From: Thioalkalivibrio thiocyanoxidans ARh2
GTDB taxonomy: Bacteria; Pseudomonadota; Gammaproteobacteria; Ectothiorhodospirales; Ectothiorhodospiraceae
NCBI RefSeq assembly: GCF_000385215.1
Contig: NZ_ARQK01000029.1
Coordinates: forward strand, 1-35,175
Length of the DNA: 35,175 nucleotides
Direction of reading: 5' to 3'
Part shown: one piece after another, positions 3,385 through 13,711 of the stretch
How the letters are laid out: each line of letters starts with the position of its first letter
How positions within the stretch are numbered: the stretch's first letter is position 1
Position numbers and translations under genes: made by a program
The notes under the pieces: generated by a model
What the model was told of the DNA's origin: nothing
What the model saw: only the letters and a program-made list of their open reading frames with translations
The model's database searches: none

Positions 3385-3400
3385 CAAGGCCGCCCCTGTA

Positions 3401-3472
3401 GGAGCCTGCTTGCAGGCGAAGCCCCTGCCCGCGTCCGACTCTGGCAGTGGCATTCGCCTGCAAGCAGGCTCC
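3401..3472. repeat. REP-type inverted repeat between convergent genes (20-bp perfect arms)
   Basis: The arms GGAGCCTGCTTGCAGGCGAA (3401-3420) and its exact complement (3453-3472) are separated by 32 bp. Each arm is itself partly palindromic (GCCTGCTTGCAGGC). The flanks continue the GTAGGAG/CTCCCAC pattern seen at 5092-5130 and 6652-6720. Placed between the 3' ends of nadA and the gene at 3490, it could stop transcription in both directions, although there is no T-run. Confidence 0.8.
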
Positions 3473-3489
3473 CACGATGGGGTGGGTAG

Positions 3490-3696: not shown

Positions 3697-3773
3697 GGCG
3701 TCCGTTCTCCGTTTCGATCAATTGGCTTATAGCCTGACGGTGGCCTGCGGTGCCATTCAAAAGCACCTGCTAG

Positions 3774-4039
3774 GGAAACACTGATTAATGTACACACTCG
3801 CGTTGGCACCCCAGGTTTTCCGAGACAAGGCGCGCCGTGCAGCGGGTAGTGGTTCTACCCGCAAGCGGCGCAACGCCGGATCGGGGAACCTGGGGTACCA
3901 ACCCCGAAGGGGCTCGGCCGCTTTTGTGCGCGCACGGCGTTGCGGTTCCCTTGTGCAGAATGACTGCACGGCGGTCACCGCGCCTTGTTCGCACGCAAAA
4001 GCGACTCGAGCGCGAGCGTGTACATTGATCAGTGTTTCC
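3774..4039 (+). mobile_element. MITE copy 1 (266 bp, non-coding, terminal inverted repeats)
   Basis: The ends are about 30-bp inverted repeats. The left starts GGAAACACTGATTAATG; the right, read from outside, starts GGAAACACTGATCAATG, with only two mismatches through CTCGCG. The flanking 4-bp sequences are CTAG (3770-3773) and CTGG (4040-4043), a near-perfect duplication. The interior is strongly palindromic: CCCCAGGTTTTCC against GGGGAACCTGGGG, GGTAG...CTACC and GTGCAG...CTGCAC. A second copy lies at 7592-7886. IS5-group transposases are known to duplicate YTAR targets, so an IS5-like enzyme is the likely mover; no transposase for it is in the window. Confidence 0.88.
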
Positions 4040-4052
4040 CTGGGGAGTGGAG

Positions 4053-4430
4053 ATGTATAAGCGCCGTGCGCGCCTGCTGGTGGCGGCGGAACGGCCGGAT
4101 GGACGCGCTGCGCGCGTGGCAGAGCTGGCCGCGGCGGCCGAGTTCGAGGACTGGATCGAGGTGCGCCCGGCGCGCGCGATGGCCGAGGTGACGGACGCCG
4201 ATCTGGCCTGGGCCGATCTGCTGGTGGCGGTCGACACGGCTGCGGCCCGCGCCATGCCGGCACATCGTCCCGCGAACTGCCGGCCGAAGTACTGGCAGCT
4301 GCCCGGCGAGACCGGGGCCGATTTCGACTTGCAGACCCTGGAGGCGCTGCGCTGCATGGTGGGTGGTATGCGCATGCTGGCGCGTGTGGATGCTGCCGGG
4401 GACGATGACGGGGAAGGCGGTCACGCGTAA
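4053..4430 (+). CDS. Hypothetical protein, 125 residues, directly behind MITE copy 1
   Basis: Not firmly recognised. The ATG at 4053 is chosen because GGGGAG (4042-4047) sits 5 bp before it; an in-frame start at 4032 would lie inside the MITE end. The product is alanine-rich and soluble. The stretch TDADLAWADLLVAVD (about residues 49-63) recalls the second half of low-molecular-weight tyrosine phosphatases, but the CX5R phosphate loop that family needs at the N-terminus is absent. It could be a degenerate relative or unrelated. The MITE inserted only a few bases upstream of its ribosome site, so the native promoter has probably been separated from the gene. Confidence 0.6.
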   Translation: MYKRRARLLVAAERPDGRAARVAELAAAAEFEDWIEVRPARAMAEVTDADLAWADLLVAVDTAAARAMPAHRPANCRPKYWQLPGETGADFDLQTLEALRCMVGGMRMLARVDAAGDDDGEGGHA

Positions 4431-4487
4431 CGGATCGCGTGTTGTCGAGACGCCGCGTTGATGTGAGCGCCCGGGGGTGCCCCGAAA

Positions 4488-4519
4488 GATCGCCACGGCG
4501 CTGCGCGCCTCGCGATGAC
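4488..4519. repeat. Short dispersed intergenic repeat
   Basis: On the minus strand this begins GTCATCGCGAGGCGCGCAG and ends GGCGATC, the pattern of a widespread proteobacterial intergenic repeat (GTCATTGCGAGG...GGCAATC). Its ends form an imperfect inverted repeat. Only one copy is in the window, so the assignment rests on recognising the motif. Confidence 0.45.
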
Positions 4520-4524
4520 AAGTG

Positions 4525-5055
4525 CTATTCGGGGTGGTACGGGACGGGCGCCCGGGCGTGCAGCTGGGCCAGGTGGTCCTCGTAGAGGGCCCAGATGCGC
4601 GGCGCGATCGCGCCGCGCGAACCGGGGTAGGTCAGGCGGTCGGGGTTGAAGGTGGCCAGGCGCTCGATCTCGGTGCAGCGCAGCTCTTCGCTGACCACGT
4701 TGAAGATCAGGATCTGTGTGCCCTGGTCGGCGATCGGCAGCAGGGCCCCGATGATGCCGGTGTCATTAAGCCCGGGCTCGCCACGGGCGTCGCCCAGCTC
4801 GGCCGGCGGGCGTACCAGCGTGCCGAGCAGCTCCTGGTAGGCCTGGCCGCAGGCAAAGCAGATCTCCGGTGCACGCAGTCCCTGCACGCGTTCGCAGGCC
4901 TGGCGTACGGTGTTGTCCGGCAGTGCCATGCGCGCTGGCGGGATCGGGATGCGGTTGCTCTCGCCATTGGGCAGCAGGCGCGGGACCGCCTCCTGGCAGG
5001 AGGGACAGCGCCAGGTGGCGACCCGCGGGCCGTCGATCACGTTGCTGGGCGGCAT
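4525..5055 (-). CDS. Hypothetical protein with two CXXC motifs (possible zinc ribbon)
   Basis: A 176-residue protein I do not recognise. It has CPSC at C17/C20 and CFACG at C66/C69, spaced as in a zinc ribbon with two knuckles, plus isolated C54 and C127. No signal peptide or membrane segment is seen. The middle (DTGIIGALLPIADQGTQILIFNVVSEE) looks like a small alpha/beta fold with hydrophobic strands. The ATG at 5055 has only a weak ribosome site. It lies between a dispersed repeat at its 3' side and a REP-like palindrome at its 5' side, with no operon partner. Metal binding is inferred from the cysteine pairs alone. Confidence 0.65.
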   Translation of the reverse strand: MPPSNVIDGPRVATWRCPSCQEAVPRLLPNGESNRIPIPPARMALPDNTVRQACERVQGLRAPEICFACGQAYQELLGTLVRPPAELGDARGEPGLNDTGIIGALLPIADQGTQILIFNVVSEELRCTEIERLATFNPDRLTYPGSRGAIAPRIWALYEDHLAQLHARAPVPYHPE

Positions 5056-5091
5056 GCGGTGGCCATGGTTCGGGGTGTGCGTTCAGTATAC

Positions 5092-5130
5092 GGCGGGCGC
5101 GCCCGCCGCGCGGGCAAGCCCGCTCCCGTA
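5092..5130. repeat. REP-like palindromes
   Basis: GGCGGGCGCGCCCGCC (5092-5107) is a perfect palindrome. It is followed by GCGGGCAAGCCCGC and CTCCCGTA (5110-5130), the reverse of a GGGAGCGGGCTTGCCCGC unit well known from Pseudomonas-type REPs. It belongs with the repeats at 3401 and 6652. It lies between the unknown gene at 4525-5055 and the 3' end of the peroxiredoxin-like gene. Confidence 0.65.
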
Positions 5131-5164
5131 TGGTCGCTTCGGCCGGCCCGCCCCGGTGGGTGCG

Positions 5165-5746
5165 TCAGCCGTAATAGTCCGGTTCGTTGCCTGGGCGCCA
5201 CTTGATGTTGCAGCCGAGGCTTGGGTGCTGCGGGTCGGGGGCGGGCTGGCCCGCCAGCAGGGCATCGCTGGCGGCGCGCAGGTCACGCCCGGTGACCGGG
5301 GTGTCGGAGCCGGGGCGGGTCTCGTCGAACTGGCCGCGATAGAACAGCTTGCGGTCGGCGTCGAACAGGTAGAGGTCCGGGGTGCAGGCCGCGTGGTAGG
5401 CCTTGGCTACGGACTGGTCCTCGTCCAGGCAGTAGGGGAACTTGTAGCCGAAGCGGCGGGCGTCGTCGCGCATCTTGTCCGGGGCGTCGTCCGGTACCGC
5501 CTGGATGTCGTTGGAGTTGATTGCGATCACCGCAATGCCCTTGTCCGAGTATTCGCGGCCGTAGCGCGCGAACTCGTGGCGGATCAGTTGCACGAACGGG
5601 CAGTGATTGCAGATAAAGGCGATCATGTAGCCTTTCGCGTCGGGAAAACTGTCGAGGCTGATGGTGTCGCCGGAGACGACGTCCGGCAGGGAAAAGTTCG
5701 GGGCCTCGGTGCCCAGTTCAATCATCTGCGAGGGGGTGCGGGCCAT
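5165..5746 (-). CDS. Thioredoxin-fold peroxiredoxin-like protein (PRX_like1 type)
   Basis: A 193-residue cytoplasmic thioredoxin-fold protein. The signature is FICNHCPFV with C46 and C49, followed by INSND, a CTPD motif (C121) and the C-terminal SLGCNIKW, all typical of the AhpC/TSA-like family often annotated as 'thioredoxin family protein'. Members are presumed thiol reductases or peroxidases, but the substrate is not established. The ATG at 5746 has GGAG 5-6 bases upstream; a longer frame to 5821 lacks a better start. It is divergent from the NADP reductase gene across about 150 bp. Confidence 0.88.
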   Translation of the reverse strand: MARTPSQMIELGTEAPNFSLPDVVSGDTISLDSFPDAKGYMIAFICNHCPFVQLIRHEFARYGREYSDKGIAVIAINSNDIQAVPDDAPDKMRDDARRFGYKFPYCLDEDQSVAKAYHAACTPDLYLFDADRKLFYRGQFDETRPGSDTPVTGRDLRAASDALLAGQPAPDPQHPSLGCNIKWRPGNEPDYYG

Positions 5747-5895
5747 GGTTGCTCCGTTAACCTGTGATGGGGGATTCGGGCGCCAATTATACGGATTGGG
5801 GCGGGGCGGATTAATCCGCATCGCCTGAAGGACAGCTTGAAACCATCCGGACGCGGCGCCAGTCTGGATAATACTTGAGTCATGGAGTCGGGAAT

Positions 5896-6636
5896 ATGGG
5901 CTGGGTCACGGGGACCGTGCAGGAGCGCAAACAATGGACGGACCGCCTCTTCTCGCTGCGGGTAGAGGCAGATGTGGAGCCGTTCAAGGCCGGGCAGTTC
6001 AATCGGCTGCGCCTGGAGATTGACGGCGAGCCAGTCGCGCGCCCTTATTCCTATGTGAATGCCCCGGACGAGACCCCGCTGGACTTCTACCTGATCACAG
6101 TGCCCGAGGGCCCCTTGTCGAACCGGCTGGTGCAGCTGGAGCCCGGCGACACGGTGGAGCTGATGCCGCGCGCCACAGGGTTCTTCACGCTGGACGAGCT
6201 GCCCGACAGCCGTGACCTGTGGCTGCTGTCCACCGGTACCGCGCTGGGGCCCTTCCTGTCGATGCTGAAGACCGACACGCCGTGGCAGCGTTTCGAGAAC
6301 ATCCGACTAATCCACGCCGTGCGCAAGGCGGAGGAACTGACCTACCAGGACACGATCCGGCAGTTCCAGGAGCGCGACCCGAAACAGTTCCAGTACATCC
6401 CGTTCGTCAGCCGCGAACCCTGCCCGGGCGGGCTCGAGGGCCGTATCCCGGCCGCGATTGCCGAGGGTCGCCTGGAGCATCACGCCGGCCTCAAGATCGC
6501 GCCGGAGCACTCGCAGTTGATGCTGTGCGGCAACCCGGCAATGGTGAAGGATACCGCCGCCATCCTCCGCGAGCGCGGGCTGGAGAAGAACCGCCGCCGC
6601 AAGCCGGGGCAGATCACCACCGAGAACTACTGGTAG
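5896..6636 (+). CDS. fpr: Ferredoxin/flavodoxin-NADP+ reductase
   Basis: A 246-residue bacterial FNR. It carries FAD and exchanges electrons between NADPH and ferredoxin or flavodoxin. Visible motifs are RPYSYV (R49-S52, FAD binding), GTALGPF (114-120, nicotinamide/pyrophosphate region) and the C-terminal aromatic end ENYW, as in E. coli Fpr, which also ends in YW. The ATG at 5896 has GGAG about 8 bases upstream; a TTG at 5875 is in frame but less likely. GATAAT at 5867-5872 is a possible -10. It is monocistronic and ends 15 bp before a REP inverted repeat that may act as terminator. Confidence 0.95.
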   Translation: MGWVTGTVQERKQWTDRLFSLRVEADVEPFKAGQFNRLRLEIDGEPVARPYSYVNAPDETPLDFYLITVPEGPLSNRLVQLEPGDTVELMPRATGFFTLDELPDSRDLWLLSTGTALGPFLSMLKTDTPWQRFENIRLIHAVRKAEELTYQDTIRQFQERDPKQFQYIPFVSREPCPGGLEGRIPAAIAEGRLEHHAGLKIAPEHSQLMLCGNPAMVKDTAAILRERGLEKNRRRKPGQITTENYW

Positions 6637-6651
6637 AGCCTCGCCCATGGT

Positions 6652-6720
6652 GTAGGAGGCCAGCCCTCTGGCCGATTGGACGCCGGTAAAACCCATCGGC
6701 CAGGGGGCTGGCCTCCTACA
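6652..6720. repeat. REP-type inverted repeat between convergent genes
   Basis: GTAGGAGGCCAGCC...GGCCGAT is followed after a short loop by ATCGGCC...GGCTGGCCTCCTAC. The arms are about 25 bp with one or so mismatches. It shares the GTAGGAG outer ends with the repeat at 3401-3472 but has a different palindromic core (GGCCAG). It separates fpr from the convergent hydrolase and may end both transcripts. Confidence 0.78.
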
Positions 6721-6740
6721 AGTTGTGGCGTGCGCCGGGG

Positions 6741-7511
6741 TTAATCCAGCAGGTTGGCGGCCCAGGCGTGGATCAGTCCGGCGACATAGCGGGTGTGCTC
6801 GGGGCGCGAGAGCAGGTGGTCGGTCTGGTGCAGGGCGACAAAGCTCTTGGGGTGGTGGGCCTGCTGGAAGATCTTGCGGGCATGATCGACGCTGACCACG
6901 GTGTCTCCGGGGGCATGCAGCAGCAGTAGCGGCTGCGTCATGCGCTCCAGCGCGCCGTCCAGTGTCGGTTCTTCGATCGAGTCCAGGAAGGGCTGCCCGA
7001 TCTCGACCGGGCGGCCGCCGATATTGACGCGCGCGAAGCCTTCGCGCTGGATGGTCGCAGCGATGTCACCGAACAGATGCGCGACATGGCCGGGCCGGCT
7101 GGGGGCGGCGATGGTGACAATGCCGCCCAGTTCTTCGCGCTGGCTGCCGACATGGATGGCCATGGCCCCGCCGAAGCTGTGACCGATCAGGAGGTCAGTG
7201 GGCTCGCCGGTTGCCTGCTGCAATGCGTCCAGCGCCGCGTTCAGGTCCTCGCAATAGGTGTCGAGCGTGCTGTCGCGAAAGCGTCCGTCGGAGTCGCCCA
7301 GCCCGGCGAAGTCGAAGCGCAGCGTGGCGATCCCCTCCTCCGCCAGGGCGCGCGCCAGGCGCACGGTCGCGGGAAAGTCCTTGGAACAGGCGAAGCAGTG
7401 TGCAATGCAGGCCTGGCCCAGTAGCGGGCCTTCGCTGGGCTCTACCAGAACGCCGTTCAGCTGGATGCCACGCGGGGTGTCGATGGGCAGGCTGGTGTTG
7501 CGGATGGCCAT
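6741..7511 (-). CDS. Alpha/beta hydrolase (OsmC-partner type)
   Basis: A 256-residue serine hydrolase with catalytic residues visible: nucleophile S112 in GHSFGG, acid D203 in HAPGDTVVS, and H232 in QTDHLLS. The N-terminal pattern AHCFACSKDF...LRFDFAGLGDSDG is that of the hydrolase half of 'bifunctional alpha/beta hydrolase/OsmC' proteins. Here the protein stops after the hydrolase domain and no OsmC domain follows. The substrate is unknown. I used the ATG at 7511 because the frame continues upstream through the MITE without a plausible ribosome site. MITE copy 2 lies about 80 bp before the start and may have replaced part of the promoter. Confidence 0.88.
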   Translation of the reverse strand: MAIRNTSLPIDTPRGIQLNGVLVEPSEGPLLGQACIAHCFACSKDFPATVRLARALAEEGIATLRFDFAGLGDSDGRFRDSTLDTYCEDLNAALDALQQATGEPTDLLIGHSFGGAMAIHVGSQREELGGIVTIAAPSRPGHVAHLFGDIAATIQREGFARVNIGGRPVEIGQPFLDSIEEPTLDGALERMTQPLLLLHAPGDTVVSVDHARKIFQQAHHPKSFVALHQTDHLLSRPEHTRYVAGLIHAWAANLLD

Positions 7512-7591
7512 GGGCGCGGGATGGTCCGGGCGGGGTGGGTCTGCGATGATACGCGAGCTGAATGTATCTCGTGACCCGCACAAACAATTAA

Positions 7592-7886
7592 GGAAACACT
7601 GACTAATGTACACGCTCGCGTTGGTACCCCAGGTTTTCCGAGACAAGGCGCGGTGCGCAGCCGGTAGTGGTTCTACCGGCAAGGGCCGCAACGCCGGATC
7701 GGGGAACCTGGGGTGCCAACCCCACAAGCCATTGAAAGCAGGGGCTCGGCCGCCCGTTGTTATCGAAAACGGGCGCGGGAACGGCGTTGCGGCTCCCTTG
7801 TGCAGAATGACTGCACGGCAGTCACCGCGCCTTGTTCGCGCGCAAAAGCGACTCGAGCGCGAGCGCGTACATTAATCAGTGTTTCC
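7592..7886 (+). mobile_element. MITE copy 2 (295 bp) with TTAA target duplication
   Basis: The ends GGAAACACTGA...TCAGTGTTTCC are exactly flanked on both sides by TTAA (7588-7591 and 7887-7890), a perfect 4-bp target duplication. The sequence is closely similar to copy 1 along its length and in the same orientation. It differs mainly in the middle, where it is about 29 bp longer and contains an extra hairpin (GCCCGTT 7752-7758, AACGGGC 7768-7774). No credible coding sequence is present. Its right end lies directly against the ribosome site of the YdcH-like gene. Confidence 0.92.
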
Positions 7887-7900
7887 TTAAGGAGGGGCTG

Positions 7901-8101
7901 TTGGAGACGGAGAGTCAGATTCGTGCACGACTGGCGGAGCTTGAGTCCGAGCATCGGGCGCTGGATTCCGCGATCGCGGTGATGCACGAGCAGCCTGCGC
8001 CGGATGCCTTCGCGATCCAGCGGCTAAAAAAGCGCAAGCTCCAGCTGAGAGACGCCATCCAGCGGCTGCGCAGTCGCCTGATCCCCGACCTGAACGCCTG
8101 A
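7901..8101 (+). CDS. YdcH-like (DUF465) small coiled-coil protein
   Basis: A 66-residue helical protein with the DUF465/YdcH pattern: LESEHRALDSAI near the start and LKKRKLQLRDAIQRL toward the end, both heptad-like and likely to form a coiled coil. The function of this family is not known. The start is TTG at 7901, supported by a strong AAGGAGG (7889-7895); the only later in-frame ATG would remove the conserved first helix. The Shine-Dalgarno overlaps the MITE's right-hand TTAA duplication, so any promoter now lies in or beyond the MITE. The stop is followed by a terminator hairpin shared with fccB. Confidence 0.85.
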   Translation: METESQIRARLAELESEHRALDSAIAVMHEQPAPDAFAIQRLKKRKLQLRDAIQRLRSRLIPDLNA

Positions 8102-13594: not shown

Positions 13595-13618
13595 ACGGGG
13601 TGGCCTGTCGTGCCGGAT

Positions 13619-13697
13619 GATGCGTTTCGCTGCGCTCAACGCATCCTACGACAGGCAGGAAGGGCTGTAGGATGTGTTGAGCGCAGCGAAACGCATC
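13619..13697. repeat. Inverted pair of GATGCG REP units
   Basis: The arms at 13619-13649 and 13667-13697 are 31 bp with one mismatch, reading GATGCGTTTCGCTGCGCTC... and its complement. Each arm contains the GAGCGCAGCGAA core also found at 342-389 and 1104-1182. It lies between the convergent kinase and dadA genes and may form a long stem in RNA. Confidence 0.85.
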
Positions 13698-13711
13698 GCC
13701 CCGGGCCGAGA

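Follow-up and report, generated by a model that had tools for sequence, protein, structure and literature searches.

The window analysed here is a 35,175-nucleotide stretch of Thioalkalivibrio thiocyanoxidans ARh2 (contig NZ_ARQK01000029.1, contig 29 of a 61-contig, 2.77-Mb genome), and it contains two copies of a short repeat that an earlier note, made from the sequence alone, had described as a two-copy family of miniature inverted-repeat transposable elements (MITEs). Copy 1 occupies positions 3774–4039 (266 bp, without optional module) and copy 2 positions 7592–7886 (295 bp, carrying optional modules B and C), both on the plus strand. The end-to-end homology claimed for them was confirmed, with 91% identity in two ungapped blocks and 83% across the full length. 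Both copies are bounded by GGAAACACTGA..TCAGTGTTTCC, the second being the complement of the first, and the element ends begin GGAAACACTGAT. The shared inverted termini are likewise present: the arms, including flanking bases, measure 31 nt in copy 1 and 33 nt in copy 2, each 94% complementary, and the terminal inverted repeats of copy 1 lie at 3774–3802 (plus strand) and 4011–4039 (minus strand). Copy 2 is flanked by the exact TTAA pair that had been reported (7588–7591 and 7887–7890), and copy 1 by CTAG at 3770–3773 and CTGG, which is CTAG with one change, at 4040–4043. The element is 62% G+C, and the view that it encodes no credible protein agrees with the absence of a Pfam domain from the three open reading frames tested across the two copies. 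Copy 2 lies between a gene for an alpha/beta hydrolase (6741–7511) and a DUF465 gene (7901–8101, TTG start), and its right TTAA stands directly 5′ of the GGAGG that precedes the DUF465 gene.

In the interior of the element, a mini-hairpin is flanked by two hairpin cassettes of 78 nt each, inverted relative to each other. In copy 1, cassette 1 (3813–3890, plus strand) reads AAGGCG..GTAGTGGTTCTAC..CAACGC, the central mini-hairpin (3902–3912) reads CCCC-GAA-GGGG, and cassette 2 (3923–4000, minus strand) is an inverted homologue of cassette 1. A covariance model, R1, was built from 16 cassettes (alignment A2, from which L035, L216 and L267 of 19 candidates were dropped). R1 scores cassette 1 of copy 1 at 96.9 bits and cassette 1 of copy 2 (7631–7708, plus strand) at 88.8 bits, both being members of its training set; cassette 2 of copy 1, which is outside that set, scores 44.5 bits on the minus strand, and cassette 2 of copy 2 (7774–7843) scores 36.4 bits, also on the minus strand. 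In alignment A1, which comprises 61 of 68 collected copies (L022, L101, L161, L166, L202, L214 and L215 were dropped), module B of copy 2 (7724–7740) stands in place of the GAA of the mini-hairpin, and hairpin module C (7753–7773) reads CCCGTTGTTATCGAAAACGGG.

The description as a two-copy family holds for the window only. An end pattern of 20 bases with up to 3 mismatches matches 48 forward and 48 reverse ends in the genome, and a reversed control pattern matches none in any of the six genomes scanned. At least 40 places in this genome are copies (scoring covered 40 of the 120 first-look candidates and confirmed every one, two of them perhaps being one copy seen at two contig ends), and at least 12 contigs of the assembly start or stop inside a copy. 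As the earlier note had proposed, searching relatives with the terminal repeat yielded further copies: forward and reverse ends number 44 and 51 in G005, 40 and 38 in G013, 46 and 40 in G014, 6 and 4 in G011, and 0 and 0 in G004, and the family is present in 16 of 30 Thioalkalivibrio genomes, this one counted. The 68 distinct copies collected are mostly 265–310 bp long. Copy number and controls rule out chance or artefact as the source of the repeats, and both copies in the window are members of a high-copy, non-autonomous MITE family of Thioalkalivibrio.

Target duplications of the form YTAR, which the earlier note had proposed, are supported for the family. Flanks were read in 66 of the collected copies, all of at least 240 bp and with orthologous copies included (copies of 162 bp and 203 bp were dropped). 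A YTAR 4-mer adjoins the left end in 30, the right end in 33, at least one end in 48 and both ends in 15, and displaced control positions gave 0 and 0. The same 4-mer stands on both sides in 15 of the 66 copies, compared with 6.0 by shuffling, and TTAA is present on both sides in 6. On one side, the CTAG facing the element is often CCAG (CTAGG changed to CCAGG), a state seen in 12 copies compared with 7 that have CTAG on both sides; such a change beside the element would presumably fit very-short-patch repair or avoidance of CTAG. When 16 orthologous sites were compared with unfilled relatives, a clean single 4-mer stood between conserved flanks in at least one empty relative at 9 of them (L001, L010, L019, L025, L056, L061, L071, L077 and L100), and the empty site at L005 is one base longer than a clean 4-mer. 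Deletion remnants of the element are visible at L205, L200 and L203. The L061 copy, in G013, appears by eye to lie within a reading frame that is continuous across the empty site in relatives, and this insertion may disrupt a gene.

The earlier note had also suggested looking for an IS5-like element with the same ends, and such an insertion sequence (IS) exists in congeners. G005 carries three 1200-bp elements with identical printed ends, starting GGAAACGCTGATCAATGG and GGAAACACTGATTTATTCC, whose flanks are CTAG/CTAG, GTAG/GTAG and CTAG/CTAG; G009 and G016 have relatives of this 1.2-kb IS, and G006 and G011 have single ends that match. Its 321-residue protein is an IS5-family transposase (NF033581, 2.2e-95; DUF772 and DDE_Tnp_1). 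For two of the IS copies, no empty site was found in the stretches examined. The IS and the MITE are alike only in their terminal 16–17 bases, with chance-level matches elsewhere, and the first 267 nt of the IS do not fold into the cloverleaf of the MITE (fold z −5.0). A MITE that resembles its IS only at the ends is termed type II in a review (PMC10969869), and the family is therefore a type II MITE whose interior is not derived from the IS. At L112 in G005, a diverged 310-bp MITE copy (450–759) abuts an IS5-family element (764–1963), and the CTAG between them is common to both.

The nested symmetry that had been pointed out in the two copies is real. For copy 1, folding yields a four-way cloverleaf whichever strand is used, with a minimum free energy of −176.6 kcal/mol and fold z scores of −13.5 (plus strand) and −14.3 (minus strand), and copy 2 likewise forms a cloverleaf (z −12.4); these folds far exceed what chance would give. 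Across the 61 aligned copies, 97.8% of 5235 cells are paired, and double changes occur in 23 of 86 pairs, whereas shuffles gave 7.4 such pairs and slid controls no more than 9. The terminal repeats often co-vary within one copy. Among minor states at the 62 pairs that the folds of the two strands share, 108 are Watson–Crick, 41 G.U, 39 A.C and 41 other; because G.U and A.C are about equal on these shared pairs, there is no sign within the genus of one favoured RNA strand, and the pattern fits a fold maintained in the DNA itself or on either strand.

These counts bear on a different origin for the core, namely from a gene for a structured RNA, or from a regulatory RNA, that acquired mobility, with selection acting on one transcribed strand. 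The very strong fold and the covariation would agree with such an origin, as would the position of copy 1, copy 2 and the copy at L056 directly upstream of sequences resembling ribosome-binding sites. Moreover, when each cassette is read in its own direction, G.U outnumbers A.C by 74:12 in the stronger arm and 59:27 in the weaker (34 distinct rows for each), although this excess stems from rows fitted to the model. By contrast, both strands fold equally well, the cassettes are inverted so that neither strand favours both, and the unbiased shared pairs give 41 G.U to 39 A.C, on which ground one-strand RNA selection was rejected. Both orientations relative to genes are found as well, the tally being 20, 16, 11 and 9 without clear bias (heuristic gene calls, orthologous copies included, five copies uncalled). 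Rfam gave no match in the window at the gathering threshold, and at E ≤ 1 it gave, across L001, L025, L221 and L230, a single match lying outside the copy. We therefore regard an RNA origin as unlikely; the structured RNA or DNA role that the earlier note had suggested for the symmetry stays hypothetical.

The element is also modular. Three optional blocks, A, B and C, of about 15 bp each, give a length of about 265 + 15n, and all eight combinations occur among the 61 aligned copies (none in 28, B in 10, C in 7, BC in 6, ABC in 4, AC in 3, A in 2 and AB in 1). L012 and L006 carry block C in reverse-complemented form (L006 with one change), and the copies at L056, a site followed by a gene that we take to be minD, have a different tip hairpin in which pairing is kept. 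Orthologous copies can differ in these parts. Eleven sites carry the element in two or more genomes in a single orientation, and at 7 of these the copies are unlike in length or module content; a twelfth multiply filled site holds the element inverted (L031 in G000, L206 in G008), with different modules too. L158 and L163 are mutual nearest neighbours (98.8%) despite differing in modules A and C, from which we infer local conversion between copies at sites such as this one. The L001 and L031/L206 pairs, which also differ in modules, are not mutual nearest neighbours, and re-insertion is possible there.

The core extends well beyond the genus. Among the matches listed, the hairpin occurs in named records from Thioalkalivibrio, and the exact pattern of cassette 1 in Thiocapsa, Thiorhodococcus, Endozoicomonas and Microbulbifer; a match in Clostridia, which looks like a repetitive coding sequence, was ascribed to chance, and one in Limisphaerales (L323) reached only E 0.19 with R1 and was set aside as unsupported. 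R1 matches were obtained in 85 of 369 gammaproteobacterial genomes, representing 64 of 271 genera (two of the 85 are Thioalkalivibrio, namely this genome and one congener); of 398 genomes sampled from the phylum, 51 had a match, 30 of these 51 lying outside the class. The 81 loci searched gave 128 matches at E ≤ 1, with a plus and a minus cassette paired in 40 loci (38 of 79 outside Thioalkalivibrio); of 18 further loci, 9 had the pair, and of the 9 of these loci that came from beyond the class, 3 had it. The geometry is nearly constant. The start-to-start distance between cassettes is 99–116 nt in 39 of the 40 pair loci, and 143 nt in the module-bearing L025; an inverted repeat surrounds 38 of the 40, delimiting an element of 258–274 bp in 36 of these (303 bp in L025 and 338 bp in L381); and the cassette lies 36–47 nt from the element edge in 37 of the 38. 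The only three foreign elements folded, L347, L328 and L340, form the same cloverleaf (z −15.8, −18.1 and −9.7).

Conservation of pairing accompanies this spread. In 114 distinct cassettes, 89.4% of cells pair, compared with 56.8% after shuffling, and the covariation score is 0.790, compared with 0.191 in shuffled and at most 0.157 in slid controls. In 103 distinct rows from outside the loci of R1 itself, all four Watson–Crick pairs occur at many stem positions, and CAAGGCG and GCAACGC are conserved beside the variable stems. The proposal that the symmetry exceeds what transposition needs is thus supported in part, since the same fold is kept across the class in elements with other ends. L347 matches four plasmid records (two from Azotobacter and one each from Halomonas and Pseudomonas), two of which cover the greater part of the element, and nothing among phage records; neither copy 1 nor L328 gave a plasmid match. 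One Azotobacter plasmid copy adjoins a gene annotated as an IS630-family transposase, and no inverted repeats common to the copy and this neighbour were found in the stretch scanned.

The ends differ between elements. Single-linkage clustering at 71% of the left 24 bases of 37 elements gave 14 clusters (L332 and L366, which have no inverted repeat, and L381, which has an odd one, were left out); some clusters have their first bases in common, which makes 14 an upper bound. Identity of cassettes across clusters reaches 96%, as in L329 and L364, in which cassette 2 is nearly identical, cassette 1 is different and the terminal repeats are unrelated. A type found in Chromatiaceae has one detected cassette and ends reading CCTAGATCCGGCAGTTGA; of 12 copies read, 9 have 5-bp duplications, for example TTGAA, ATAAT and TTAAA. 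The core thus recurs in Gammaproteobacteria with near-constant geometry, behind many terminal repeats and at least two target-duplication lengths, and ends and core have, to some degree, separate histories.

Taken together, these observations make it likely that the two copies are type II MITEs carrying a structured passenger core that swaps cassettes, modules and transposon ends. An IS5-family transposase would have mobilized the copies in trans, and the core would be a passenger whose lineage is independent. Its cassettes, the optional 15-bp modules and, over longer times, the ends too would be swapped when copies recombine or undergo conversion; we propose that, once ends are exchanged, different transposases can carry the core, so that the passenger would be moved by whichever transposase suits its ends. 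Upkeep of the fold is probably due to the folded strand, which could be an extruded cruciform or a strand left single in the course of replication or transposition. Read-through transcripts might form long RNA hairpins and, by analogy with Correia elements, could be substrates of RNase III. The wider claim, that the elements form a phylum-spanning superfamily in which the folded core is heritable and the ends are exchangeable, and in which the core parasitizes several transposase families in turn, seems to us evenly balanced. The core would spread by swapping cassettes and ends, perhaps owing to recognition of the folded strand by a host or transposase factor.

The main rival is drift of ends within one lineage: an old MITE family, inherited by descent and spread horizontally, whose ends have drifted in tracking their transposases, with no exchange of ends and a core without function. 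Constant overall length and geometry would be expected of it, and most clusters retain flanks of the YTAR type and ends that start with G or T. This account is harder to reconcile with near-identical cassettes behind unrelated ends (L329 and L364) and with the Chromatiaceae type, with its 5-bp duplications and one detected cassette, and the occurrence of all four Watson–Crick pairs in stems beside conserved loops argues for upkeep of the fold. We consider drift a real but less probable explanation.

Several observations weigh against the reading of a passenger core with exchangeable ends. The clusters mostly have YTAR-type flanks and several begin alike (GGGCCTGTT, GGGCGTGTC), so gradual drift could account for part of the diversity of ends. 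No second cassette passed in 41 of the 81 loci, some of them at contig ends. R1 E-values are rough and covariance-model matches favour the modelled fold by construction, and two of the five measures in the cassette covariation test show no excess over shuffles (23 double-change pairs compared with 22.3, and 91 pair types compared with 88.1). Copy 1 is nearer to some paralogues than to its orthologues, which makes re-insertion instead of conversion possible there. This genome gave no DUF772 or DDE_Tnp_1 match and hence no sign of an IS5-family transposase, so that present-day mobilization is hypothetical. Finally, 6 of the 16 orthologous sites (L006, L011, L014, L029, L030 and L069) are not clean, owing to indels or element remnants, and the empty 4-mer equals that of the filled copy at only 2 of the 9 clean sites, L056 and L071. 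For copy 1, filled at CTAG, the empty 4-mer is CGAG in G008, CCCG in G013 and CGCG in G010; for copy 2, filled at TTAA, it is GCGA in G014, G008, G013 and G005; and at L061 it is CTGA in seven genomes. At several sites, filled copies have TTAA flanks where empty relatives have GCGA, CTGA or TCAA. Rewriting of the target, with the element bringing YTAR along, was considered and rejected: at five YTAR places between copies 1 and 2, compared in four genomes, background YTAR 4-mers were conserved in only 7 of 20 comparisons, whereas all 4-mers were 71% conserved, so no rewriting is needed.

REPINs, which are inverted hairpin doublets present at high copy, offer another comparison, and the cassettes could be hairpins of the repetitive extragenic palindrome (REP) or REPIN kind moved by a RAYT (Y1) transposase. 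The inverted doublets do resemble REPINs, and the Y1_Tnp domain was detected in 73 of 85 core-positive genomes compared with 168 of 284 core-negative ones, an excess that may reflect general mobile-element load or kinship. To our knowledge, however, REPs and REPINs have neither IS-type terminal repeats nor target duplications, and the Thioalkalivibrio element has both; at 266–310 bp, it thereby differs from REPINs and from GTAG-type REPs. Dependence on RAYT was set aside as doubtful: Y1_Tnp, although associated with the core, was undetected in 12 of the 85 core-positive genomes, some of them incomplete, and we regard a RAYT-moved origin as very unlikely. The motifs AAGGCG, CAACGC and TTCTAC are absent from the main text, figures apart, of a paper on REPs (PMC3733652).

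Other known systems are alike in part. The BOX elements of pneumococcus are modular mobile repeats with variable internal blocks, and in this they resemble the Thioalkalivibrio element, whose modules and host are unrelated to theirs. Type II bacterial MITEs, as described in a review (PMC10969869), are also short and non-coding, with terminal repeats of about 30 bp, a small target duplication and only their ends in common with an IS. MITEs are typically AT-rich in that account, whereas the present element is G+C-rich, and its interior is a conserved cloverleaf common to elements with other ends. The same source describes Correia/NEMIS and ERIC elements as mobile repeats with folding transcripts, those of Correia being cleaved by RNase III; here, by contrast, there are two inverted hairpin cassettes and a class-wide core. 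TIMEs, as described in PMC4133298, are similarly small and transposase-less, being Tn3-derived elements of 262 bp that help to build mosaic elements; they have 38-bp Tn3-type ends and 5–6-bp duplications, whereas the ends here begin GGAAACACTGAT. No description of the core was found in the literature, a search that covered few subscription papers and so is weak evidence of novelty.

The window contains other repeats as well. A second family, at 338–389, 1103–1187 and 13618–13703, comprises TGATGCGTTTCGCTGCGCTCAACGCATCCTACG and GTGCACTGAGCGCAGCGAACTGCACC, partly as close inverted pairs, and short GC-rich palindromes of REP or terminator type were read in intergenic positions at 3400–3475 and 6653–6721.

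In the usual view, a MITE combines the ends of a given IS with a dispensable filling. Here, it is the filling whose fold is kept, throughout a bacterial class and also outside it, with differing ends, and the core looks like a hitchhiker switching vehicles. If it truly changes ends, it would be a non-coding genetic parasite with a lineage of its own, tied to no single transposase, which raises the testable question of what recognizes the AAGGCG / TGGTT / CAACGC hairpin. A single covariance model could also annotate many intergenic repeats that are at present unexplained.

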